From NCBI GenBank assembly GCA_003252535.1, contig QKDN01000059.1, forward strand, positions 1 to 32,882: DNA of 32,882 nucleotides, in the 5' to 3' direction. The stretch is from Campylobacterota bacterium (GTDB taxonomy: Bacteria; Campylobacterota; Campylobacteria; Campylobacterales; Sulfurovaceae). Each line of letters begins with the position of its first letter. Position 1 is the stretch's first letter. Made by a program: the position numbers and the translations under genes. The notes beneath the pieces were generated by a model. That model worked only from the letters and a program-made list of their open reading frames with translations. It did not search any database and was not told the DNA's origin. Below, piece by piece: positions 314 to 10,002 of this stretch.

Positions 314-1879
314 TTATACAGTCTCAGAGCTGTCCGTATGACGGAGCTTGAGCATCCCTTCCATGCTAAGGTAGCTGTTGAGCGCGCCGATGTAGGCGCG
401 GGCTGAGGCCATCATCGTATCGAGGCTGAGGCCGTGGCCGATGATGGCTGGTTCGTTCTCGTTGAACATCACTTTGACCGTGACATTGGCGAGGGCGTCC
501 TTCCCTTTGGAGACCGAGGTGACCTTGTAGTCGAGGAGCTTACCCTGGTAGCCCGTGATGCGGTCGATGGTCTTGAACACCGCGTCGATCGTCCCGTCGC
601 CGATAGCCGCGTCGGTGGTGACGGTATCCTCGTGTTTGATAGTCACGGCTGCGCTCGGTACGCCTGCACTGCAGTCCATGAGCTGCAACGAGACCAATTC
701 GAAAGCTTTGTTGACCGCCGTCATCTGGCTCGTCATCAAGGCTCTCACATCGTCGTCGTAAATCTCTTTTTTCTTGTCGGCGATCTCTTTGAATCTCTCG
801 AAGGCATTGTTGAGATCATCATCGTTCACCTCGAAACCAAGCTTGTGCAATTTATCCCTGAACGCCGCGCGCCCGGAGTGCTTGCCAAGTACCAAGGTAT
901 CCTCCATATCAAGCCCGATATCGGCAGGAGAGATGATCTCGTAGGTCTCCTTGTGCTTCAATACACCGTCCTGGTGGATACCGCTCTCATGGGCGAAAGC
1001 GTTCTTGCCGACGATCGCTTTGTTGGGCTGCGGCTCGATCCCGGTGATATTGGCGATCAAACGGCTGGCGGGGTATATCTCTTTGGTATTGATATTGGTC
1101 TTGTACGCGCCGAAGATATCCTGACGGGTCTTGAGCGTCATGACGATCTCCTCGAGCGCTGCATTCCCTGCACGCTCGCCCAAACCGTTGATCGTACACT
1201 CTACCTGTCTCGCGCCGTTGAGCACCGCCTCGAGGGAGTTGGCGACACCCAAGCCCAAGTCGTTGTGGTTGTGTACCGAAATGATCGCCCGCCCCTCGGT
1301 GAATCTGCTCATCTCCCTGACCATCGCACCGATCTCGGAGGGCAACCTGTAGCCGACTGTGTCGGGGAGGTTGATCGTGGTGGCGCCTGCATTGATGACC
1401 GCATCGACGATCTCTTTCATGAAGCCGATATCGCTTCTCCCCGCATCCTCGCAGCTGAACTCTACATCGTCGGTGAATTCCCTGGCGTACTCGACCGCTC
1501 TCACCGCTCTTCTGATCACCTCTTCGGGCTTCATCTTGAGCTTGTACTCCATGTGGATGGGGCTGGTGGCGATGAAGGTGTGGATACGCTTGTGTCTGGC
1601 ATGGGCGATAGCATCGCCTGCCGCCTTGATATCGCTGTCAAGCGCCCTGGCCAAAGAACAGACCGTAGAGTGGGTGATACGCGCGGCGATCTTACTCACC
1701 GCGTCGAAATCGCCCGGGCTCGCCGCAGCGAAACCCGCCTCGATGATATCGACGCCGAGTCGCTCCAACTGCATCGCTATCTGTATCTTCTCCTCGGTGT
1801 TCATCGAAGCACCCGGACTCTGCTCACCGTCTCTCAATGTCGTATCAAATATCTTGATGATCTCTTGTTCATGATTCAT
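314..1879 (-). CDS. leuA: 2-isopropylmalate synthase
   Basis: LeuA condenses acetyl-CoA with 2-oxoisovalerate, the first committed step of leucine synthesis, in the cytosol. The 521-residue protein has full family length. The catalytic TIM barrel carries [10 protein letters not shown] near residue 14 and the metal-binding HNHND at 203-207. GKHSGR follows in the linker region, and the last ~130 residues resemble the LeuA dimerisation domain that binds leucine for feedback inhibition. The ATG follows an AAAAGG Shine-Dalgarno. The gene lies downstream of ftsH on the same strand. The 256-bp gap contains a promoter and a short leader ORF ending in leucine codons (1997-2074), which suggests control by leucine supply. 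Homocitrate and citramalate synthases are related, but the length and motifs favour LeuA. Confidence 0.95.
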
Positions 1880-1996
1880 AATAATACCTTTTATGCGTAT
1901 ATTCCCGAAAGAAACCCGGAAATAGAATGGTTTAATTTTATCCTAAAAATAGTGATAAAACAGCTATAGAATGTAAAAATGATAGGGGTGTAAATC

Positions 1997-2074
1997 TTAC
2001 AGTGAGAGCAGCAGCAGGAGAGCGGTGGCTTTGTATGTGAAATTTTTGTGCGAAATGGATGCAAATGCTTTCAT
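1997..2074 (-). CDS. leuL: Putative leucine leader peptide upstream of leuA
   Basis: A 25-codon ORF starts with ATG three bases after a strong GGAGAGA Shine-Dalgarno and ends TAA, 117 bp before leuA. Its C-terminus reads ALLLLLSL: five consecutive leucine codons (CTC CTG CTG CTG CTC), then serine and leucine just before the stop. Short ORFs with leucine runs ahead of leu biosynthesis genes are the hallmark of attenuation leader peptides such as enterobacterial LeuL. A T-run followed by TATAAT (2095-2100) places the likely transcript start only about 15 nt upstream of the ATG. A classical GC-rich terminator with a U-tract is not obvious between here and leuA. TTTTATC/GATAAAA can form a weak AT stem there. 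The exact mechanism is therefore open. Confidence 0.7.
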   Translation of the reverse strand: MKAFASISHKNFTYKATALLLLLSL

Positions 2075-2077
2075 TTT

Positions 2078-2115
2078 CTCTCCTTTTTTGTGCAATTATA
2101 CAAAAAAGAGGAGAG
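2078..2115 (-). promoter_or_regulatory. leuL/leuA promoter embedded in an inverted repeat
   Basis: On the minus strand TTTTTTG precedes TATAAT (2095-2100), matching the T-rich plus -10 layout of Campylobacterota sigma-70 promoters. The same stretch is an inverted repeat: CTCTCC and TTTTTTGT pair with ACAAAAAA and GGAGAG, with a 2-nt bulge and an 8-nt loop. GGAGAG is the leader peptide Shine-Dalgarno. A transcript reading through from ftsH could therefore hide the leader ribosome site, while one starting at this promoter could not. Confidence 0.6.
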
Positions 2116-2121
2116 GAATGC

Positions 2122-2152
2122 AAGAGAAAGGAAAATTATTTTCCTTTCTCTT
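2122..2152 (-). terminator. Perfect hairpin around the ftsH stop codon
   Basis: AAGAGAAAGGAAAA and TTTTCCTTTCTCTT form a perfect 14-bp inverted repeat. The 3-nt loop is exactly the ftsH TAA stop codon. The downstream arm is pyrimidine-rich with a TTTT run, so it could act as a weak terminator or a 3'-end stabiliser of the ftsH transcript. It is not a textbook GC-rich stem plus U-tract. Confidence 0.5.
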
Positions 2153-4091
2153 CTGCCTCTACGATCTCGCTGTGGGCGAGACGGCTCTCGAGACCGTTCG
2201 CCTCTTCGTACTCTTTGATGATCTCTCTGACTTTGGAGCCTTCGATCACCTCTACATCGAGGAGGACGCTTGTCATCTTCTCTATCGCCGGACTGTAGTC
2301 GCGGAGAGTCTGCTTGACCTTGCTGTAGTGCTCGTCGAGCATAGACTTGACCGTCGTGTCGATCTGCTCCGCCATCTTCTCGCTGTAGTCCTTCTGCGCC
2401 ATACCGCCGTCGAGGAAGCTGTGCTGTCTCTTCTCAAGCACCATCAGACCCGCCACATCGCTCATACCGTAGACGGAGATCATCGCCTTGATGATATCGG
2501 TAGCTCTCTGGAGATCGTTCCCGGCACCCGTCGATATCTCGCCGAGGAACACATCCTCGGCCGCGCGCCCCGCGAGGAGGACATCGATCTCGGCGAGAAG
2601 CTCGTGGCGCTGCTTGAGGAATCTGTTCTCCTCGTCCGGAAGGTGGAGGGTATACCCCAGCGCCCCGAGACCCCTCGGGATGATCGAGACCTTCGTGACC
2701 CTCGTCGCCCCCTTGGTGAGCTCCGCCATCAGCGCGTGGCCACTCTCGTGGTAGGCGACGATCTTCTTTTCCGTCTCGTTGATCTTACGGTTCTTTTTCT
2801 CAAGCCCTACGAAGGCTCTCTCGATAGCTTCCATCAGGTCGCTCTGCTCGATCTCTTTTTTGTTGTATCGTCCTGCGAGGAGCGCCCCCTCGTTGATGAT
2901 ATTGGCGAGATCAGCCCCGGCGAGTCCCGCTGTAGCTTTGGCGATGGCTGCGAGGTCGACATTTTTGGAGAGCTTGACATCCTTGATATGCACCTGGAGG
3001 ATCGCCAGTCTCCCCTCGTAGTCCGGCTTGTCGACGAGCACCTGACGGTCAAATCTTCCCGCTCTCAGAAGTGCAGCATCGAGTATCTCGGGTCTGTTGG
3101 TCGCCGCGAGGACGATGACCGGGGTGTTGCTCCCGAATCCGTCCATCTCTGCGAGGAGCTGGTTGAGGGTCTGCTCCCTCTCGTCGTTACCGCCGAAATT
3201 CGCCCCTGATGCCCTGCTCTTGCCGATAGCATCGATCTCGTCGATGAAGATGATCGCCGGAGCCGCTTTCTTCGCCTGGTCGAAGAGATCGCGTACACGG
3301 CTCGCACCCACACCCACGAACATCTCGATGAAGCTCGAACCACTCACCGAGAAGAAAGGGACCGACGCTTCACCTGCTACCGCTTTGGCAAGGAGAGTCT
3401 TACCGGTACCCGGAGGGCCCACAAGGAGGACACCTTTTGGGATCTTCGCACCAAGCTCCATATAACGCTCGGGGTATTTGAGGAAGTCGACGATCTCCTT
3501 GACCTCCTCCTTGGCCTCTTCTGCTCCCGCTACATCATCGAACTTGGTCTCAGGCTTCTCTGAGTCGACCATACGGTCGTTCTTGCCCATCCCGAGGATG
3601 CTGCCGCCCATCCCTTTCTGCATCCTTTTGGCTATGAAGATCCAGATAGCAAAGAAGATCAGGATCGGTAGAAGCATACTGATCAGCTCTGAAAGAAGAC
3701 CGTTGCCCATGACACCTTCGTACTTGATCTTTTTCTCTTCGAGAAGCGGGATCAGCTCCCTGTCGATCGCCGGGACATTCTGAGCAGTATATCGGATGAA
3801 GCTCCCCTCGCTCCCCCCTATCGCCTCGATATAACTTGGGGTGATCTTGACGCTTTTGATCTCGCCGCTCTTGATCAGCTCCTTGACCTCAGAGTATGTC
3901 ACCTGCTTGGTCTTCGTATTGGCGGGACTCATCATCGTCCCGAGCCCATCTCCTTCTCCCACAAAGCTCTTGAAGAGCATGATGACCACGATCGAGAAGA
4001 TCGCGAACGCCAGCAGGGGATTGTTGTTGAAGAAGTTGTTGTTATTGTTATCCTGATTGTTCGGATTGTTTTGATTGTTCTGATTACTCAT
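2136..4091 (-). CDS. ftsH: ATP-dependent zinc metalloprotease FtsH
   Basis: FtsH is the membrane-anchored AAA+ protease that removes damaged membrane and regulatory proteins. The 651-residue protein has full length. After an Asn-rich N-terminus come a membrane segment at about 25-42, a periplasmic domain, and a second membrane segment at about 134-154. The AAA module has Walker A GPPGTGKT (225-232), Walker B IIFIDEID (280-287) and [18 protein letters not shown] with the arginine fingers. The protease domain has HESGH (448-452) with a later zinc ligand D526 in [10 protein letters not shown]. All catalytic residues are intact. Its start overlaps the prmA stop by 8 bp, so hisA-prmA-ftsH is a tightly packed unit. 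The stop codon sits in the loop of a perfect hairpin. A divergent FtsH-like gene lies at 26470-27816. Confidence 0.97.
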
Positions 4092-5624: not shown

Positions 5625-5704
5625 TTGTGTCCTTTTAATTGTATAGATTTGTTAGTTTAGTTTTGAGTTCATCGAAGTTGGGGTGATTGAAGTCATAGGA
5701 TACA

Positions 5705-5812
5705 CTCGTTCCCAAGCTGTGCTTGGGAATGCATATGGATGTCTCAGCTATCGGATAAGTTCCAAATAATAGAAAGTCTCGTATGTGTTCCCATCGGGAC
5801 GATGGGAACAAG
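5705..5812. repeat. REPIN-like palindromic repeat, copy 2
   Basis: This copy is also 108 bp, starting CTCGTTCCCA and ending TGGGAACAAG. Its left hairpin, TTCCCAAGC/GCTTGGGAA, has the same stem as the right hairpin of copy 1. Its right hairpin is TTCCCATCG/CGATGGGAA. Stem bases therefore change in pairs while TTCCCA and TGGGAA stay fixed. GCATATGGA follows the left hairpin in both copies, and GTTCCAAAT lies in the middle. It sits between hisH and hisA. Confidence 0.8.
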
Positions 5813-5836
5813 GGTATGTGCATCATCTCCGGATCC

Positions 5837-8292: not shown

Positions 8293-10002
<1,710 letters not shown>

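Follow-up and report, generated by a model that had tools for sequence, protein, structure and literature searches.

The leuA gene of the DNA analysed here, a stretch of 32,882 nucleotides from a bacterium of the Campylobacterota (contig QKDN01000059.1; hereafter, the window), is preceded by a leucine-rich leader ORF, leuL, whose Leu codons appear to form a conserved helix with the Shine-Dalgarno (SD) sequence of the leader itself. Judged by its position, its size and its Leu run, the ORF is a member of the LeuL family and is not new in kind. The observation is real, and several structural features of this known leader family look new, i.e., the SD:Leu helix, the hairpins at the stop codon and in the spacer, a second promoter-like box (P2), and the peptide LPKIEIKN found in other families.

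The genome that carries the window has a size of 2.92 Mb, and the relatives of its leuA are Sulfurovum-type Campylobacterota. On the minus strand, where all the features of the leader region are located, the ftsH gene (4091..2136) is followed, after a gap of 256 nt, by the leuA gene (314..1879), which encodes a 2-isopropylmalate synthase (NCBIfam NF002086 and TIGR00973); the identity of ftsH is also backed by NCBIfam. Transcription of the upstream ftsH gene probably ends at a 31-nt palindrome (AGAGAAAGGAAAATAATTTTCCTTTCTCT; 2122..2152), which is 97% its own reverse complement and overlaps the ftsH stop region. The sequence-only reading had placed in this gap a 25-codon ORF with its own promoter, a GGAGAG ribosome site and an ALLLLLSL end, and this description was confirmed on the minus strand. 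The ORF (2074..1997) encodes MKAFASISHKNFTYKATALLLLLSL followed by the stop codon, and its 3' end lies 117 nt from leuA, which has its own SD, AAGG, at 1890..1887. The leucine control codons, CTC CTG CTG CTG CTC TCA CTG (2000..2020), comprise six Leu codons with one Ser codon before the last CTG, and this C-terminal Leu run is conserved. When the region was shuffled 20,000 times with its dinucleotides preserved, an ORF of 10-50 codons with an SD and at least five Leu among its last 10 codons appeared only once.

The putative leader promoter P1 has a -10 box, TATAAT (2100..2095), 20 nt 5' of the leader start codon, and a weak -35-like element, TTGCAT (2118..2123), at a spacing of 17 nt. Relatives carry TTGACA with TATAAT or TATACT at the equivalent place. 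A consensus scan of the window for promoters and terminators called nothing on the minus strand; P1 escaped this strict promoter scan because its -35 element is weak.

Two repeats were observed elsewhere in the window. Positions 9636-9815 contain eleven overlapping copies of a repeat with a 9/18-nt periodicity (CACCNGTNTCTCCNGT), in the region of the minus-strand ORF 8293..10002. The string SICIPKHSLGT is common to two short ORFs of opposite orientation (206-406 on the plus strand and 5635-5826 on the minus strand), which suggests that a short repeat is dispersed here in inverted copies, too small for the 40-nt limit of the repeat search.

About 250 leuA loci were gathered to follow the leader across the Campylobacterota. 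The sequence-only reading would have fallen if the ORF or its Leu run were not conserved in close relatives; among the 100 genomes of the window family whose sequence extends far enough 5' of leuA, 91 have a Leu-rich leader preceded by an SD at this place, whereas shuffling of the same regions gives an expectation of 1.2. A Leu-rich leader is also present in most of the sampled genomes of other Campylobacterota families. It was not seen ahead of leuA in families f4 (0/6), f5 (0/2) and f9 (0/1); the automatic filter missed some real leaders in other families. The six f4 genomes (L201, L206, L211, L212, L214, and L216) have leuA, and no leucine leader was found ahead of it.

The gathered loci also include two peculiar groups. 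In a C. jejuni-like genus (g20; L251-L255), leuA is only 48-49% identical to that of the window, far below the values of other genera, and the LeuL leader is still found upstream, as if the gene and its leader were of different histories. The leuA matches of four genomes (G162, G170, G168, and G171) contain two or three in-frame TAA codons and may be decayed genes or matches that overrun the gene end.

The sequence-only reading had mentioned leucine leaders of enterobacteria only; such leaders have also been described within the phylum of the window. The name LeuL was given in 2013 to the leader of C. jejuni, and orthologs were predicted for most of the Epsilonproteobacteria that possess leucine genes; the leader RNAs of C. 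jejuni end shortly 3' of the leader stop codon, and a role in attenuation was proposed (PMC3847290). Its translation in C. jejuni was shown in 2025 by ribosome profiling with retapamulin, which marks initiation (PMC11955535). The leader of the window resembles this LeuL in having 20-35 amino acids, several C-terminal Leu residues, a position directly ahead of leuA, and its own promoter and SD, in the same phylum (PMC3847290). One locus encodes a 28-residue leader with the C-terminus LLLQLSL, in agreement with the published C. jejuni peptide. The accessible portions of the two papers contain no mention of an SD:Leu-codon helix, of the spacer hairpins A and B, or of the P2 motif (PMC3847290, PMC11955535), and the literature found reports no tested mechanism for LeuL.

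The codons of the run differ in rarity from those of C. jejuni, where the Leu codons of LeuL are rare (PMC3847290). In the window, the Leu codons of the leader are not rare: among the Leu codons of ten window genes, CTC is the commonest (50%) and CTG accounts for 18%. Codon rarity is a trait of the C. jejuni leader and not a definition of the family. The AT-rich relatives of the window do use rare Leu codons in their leaders, with CTC at 41% in the leaders vs. 8% in leuA. Besides codon rarity, pairing with the SD is offered as a second reason for the maintenance of CTC and CTG in these leaders.

When the window sequence is folded at minimum energy, the leader SD AGGAGAG (2084..2078; GGAGAG core at 2083..2078) forms the 5' arm of a 7-bp helix whose 3' arm, CUCUCCU (2022..2016), overlaps the Leu codons, and both arms covary in relatives. 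Since Leu codons of the type CTC-CTN always look complementary to an SD, the covariation was evaluated by a permutation in which the SD of one genome was paired with the Leu run of another. Among 168 sequences, the matched SD:Leu pairs were better than the permuted ones (-12.18 vs. -10.71, with a permutation standard deviation of 0.14). When 434 segment pairs were compared with no prior choice in 38 mutually divergent family members, the SD:Leu helix ranked at the top (z -6.9). Pairs involving neither the SD nor the Leu segment reached -3.1 at best, and the comparison thereby provides an empirical null of equal relatedness. By direct counting of pairs, the contiguous pairing past AGG:CCU was 3.76 vs. 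2.87 ± 0.15, a value above all 5000 permutations. The third extension position of the helix is A-U in 25 cases, U-G in 2, U-A in 2, and C-G in 1, and striking examples are AGGAGGATAGA/TCTATCCTCCT (L180, L183, and L249), GGAGCGTACC/GGTATGCTCC (L039), and AGGAGTGT/ACGCTCCT (L017). Outside the window family, the helix is weak (z about -2.5), and it is not obvious in the C. jejuni-like leaders. Taken as a single sequence, the whole leader RNA of the window folds no better than its shuffles. From these comparisons, the helix would be a new feature of the leader, conserved in the window family, by which the control codons would cover the ribosome site of the very ORF to which they belong.

The closest precedent for such a pairing is the actinobacterial LEU element of leuA, where a run of Leu codons in the leader also pairs with an SD, in that case the one of leuA, with the involvement of a pseudoknot (PMC1262725). 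A similar translational control might be imagined here, with the Leu codons masking the SD of leuA and a stalled ribosome setting it free, and the Leu run is indeed complementary to SD sequences. However, unlike in the actinobacterial element, the Leu run of the window family favors the leader SD over the poorly pairing leuA SD in all 38 divergent members (mean -12.9 vs. -4.3 kcal/mol), and no covariation links it to the leuA SD. Masking of the leuA SD was rejected on these energies and on covariation, and translational control of this kind is thus very improbable.

The spacer between leuL and leuA contains further structures that are shared by the family, and all three of them are present in the window: a small hairpin that spans the stop codon of leuL (UGUAA GAU UUACA; 1989..2001), whose stop-proximal pairing covaries (z -5.8), hairpin A (GUUUUAUC..GAUAAAAU; 1935..1961), which covaries in relatives (z -5.5), and the 10-bp hairpin B (UAUUUCCGGG..UUCGGGAAUA; 1900..1924), where covariation is also found (z -4.8). 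Hairpins A and B belong to the predicted folds of the window. Hairpin B would be the terminator in a classical attenuation mechanism, in which stalling at the Leu codons toggles an antiterminator against an intrinsic terminator before leuA, as has been proposed for the C. jejuni LeuL (PMC3847290). Apart from its covariation, this role of hairpin B would be favored by a U-run that follows it in some relatives and ends about 24 nt before leuA; when 168 spacers were scanned for intrinsic terminators, only a minority of relatives had such a U-run behind a hairpin, near position -24. In contrast, hairpin B of the window has no U-run, and neither the consensus scan nor the scan of the 168 spacers revealed an intrinsic terminator in the window spacer, so that the earlier remark that a standard terminator is not evident before leuA holds for the window. 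Moreover, the 2:3 pairing expected of an antiterminator does not covary (z -0.2 to -1.7), no covariation was found for pairing of the Leu codons with the spacer hairpins, the families with spacers of 50-65 nt show no terminator, and one genome (L144) that lost the leader keeps both hairpins A and B. Classical attenuation is therefore a rather unlikely explanation for this leader.

Other leucine attenuators provide a useful comparison. In enterobacteria, the leu operon attenuator (Rfam Leu_leader) includes a short leader, rich in consecutive Leu codons, that precedes leuA. The window shares this short leader with its Leu codon run but, unlike the enterobacterial system, it has no match to Rfam Leu_leader and no pair of intrinsic terminator and antiterminator. 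A search of the window with the Rfam covariance models gave no match at the gathering score, and at E<=10 only chance-level matches, none of them to Leu_leader. The staphylococcal ilv-leu attenuator has a 26-amino acid leader with Leu codons, similar in size to that of the window, and its leucine-dependent control is genetically supported in Staphylococcus; it differs in preceding ilvD and in having a terminator, 52 nt past the leader stop (PMC5794164).

As a substitute for an intrinsic terminator, Rho may be considered. The spacers of the family are C-rich and G-poor (19% C and 9% G), a composition that would suit Rho and that is only suggestive.

Between the leader and leuA, the box TAAAAT (1935..1940) resembles a -10 element and is probably part of a second promoter, P2, for leuA. 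The motif TA[ACG][AG]AT is found in 25 of the 38 divergent members vs. 2.3 expected, and it overlaps hairpin A. Its variants are TAAAAT (47), TAGAAT (24), TAAGAT (6), and TACAAT (6), which vary at the two middle positions only. The two middle positions are usually the most variable ones of -10 boxes; this likeness lends weak support to a promoter because the search pattern fixed the other positions. The leaderless genomes L175, L184, and L190 keep the box close to leuA, the box reads TAATAT in another one (L157), and a canonical TATAAT occupies the same place in family f6 (the loci with a P2 box include L199 and L204). The reading of the box as a promoter is not settled, because hairpin A, which overlaps it, also covaries.

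If P2 were the main promoter, the leader might matter little, and leuA of the window organism would be driven mainly by P2. The frequency of the motif, its maintenance in leaderless genomes and the TATAAT of family f6 agree with this possibility. Nevertheless, the leader frame, the Leu run and the SD:Leu helix have all been kept across the family, and the motif lies within a covarying hairpin and may not be a promoter, which makes a leader of little effect improbable.

In five other Campylobacterota families (f3, f8, f10, f11, and f12), the leaders, which are among L191-L248 (e.g., L229, L203, and L208), carry LPKIEIKN as a peptide motif ahead of the Leu run. Across 28 distinct leaders, the residues LPKIE and N never change and the intervening I and K hardly do, an invariance that is partly a selection effect because the pattern used to choose the 28 leaders allowed little residue change. 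Independently of this choice, the underlying codons vary freely, with ATA 9, ATT 8, and ATC 11 for Ile, and CCC 7, CCT 7, and CCA 14 for Pro. A degenerate LPKIEIKN pattern matched in 33 of 150 genomes, once in each, and just upstream of leuA wherever the coordinates of leuA are known, and the reversed control pattern gave no match. The anchored pN/pS of the peptide is 0.45-0.74, an estimate blurred by the alignment at the Leu run, so that more weight is given to the counts per alignment column. These data point to selection on the LPKIEIKN peptide in those families, and therefore possibly to nascent-chain stalling there.

TnaC is a nascent peptide that arrests its own ribosome as a response to tryptophan. 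By analogy, leucine might trigger an arrest of translation by the leader peptide, a reading favored by the invariant residues over free codons and the single occurrence per genome at leuA in the other families. However, the window family has a different and looser motif before the Leu run, F.K...[ST], so that the reading of peptide selection was not extended to the window, and the Leu run would be superfluous in such a mechanism. As an explanation for the leader, arrest by the nascent peptide is distinctly improbable.

Taken together, the identification of a leucine leader ahead of leuA by the sequence-only reading is supported. The ORF, its conservation, the SD:Leu helix, the conserved hairpins and the P2 motif are seen in the sequences, whereas we infer the sensing of leucyl-tRNA, the attenuation of leuA by termination and a role of Rho. 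We consider it rather probable that leuL is a sensor of leucine supply that acts via premature termination, and that the SD:Leu helix would shut the leader once a ribosome has moved on. P1 would transcribe leuL, and a ribosome translating it would gauge the supply of leucyl-tRNA at the run of Leu codons. When leucine is plentiful, the ribosome would pass through and depart, and the Leu codons would re-pair with the leader SD, shutting out a second ribosome. The bare, C-rich and G-poor RNA left behind the ribosome would then lead to premature termination before leuA, either Rho-dependent or at the weak spacer hairpins. When leucine is scarce, the ribosome would stall on the Leu codons and keep the helix open, and termination would fail. 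The P2 box between the leader and leuA would provide a basal supply of leuA.

Somewhat further, we tentatively propose that the leader may be a self-closing sensor: the codons that read leucine would also be the lid of the leader's ribosome site, allowing about one reading per transcript in plentiful leucine, the control of leuA would be exerted by the leader RNA left bare, and the sister families may have added the nascent peptide LPKIEIKN. To the known LeuL leaders, the comparison adds parts that can be tested, i.e., a covarying helix that would mask the SD, the promoter-like box of P2, and a peptide motif that appears to be under selection.
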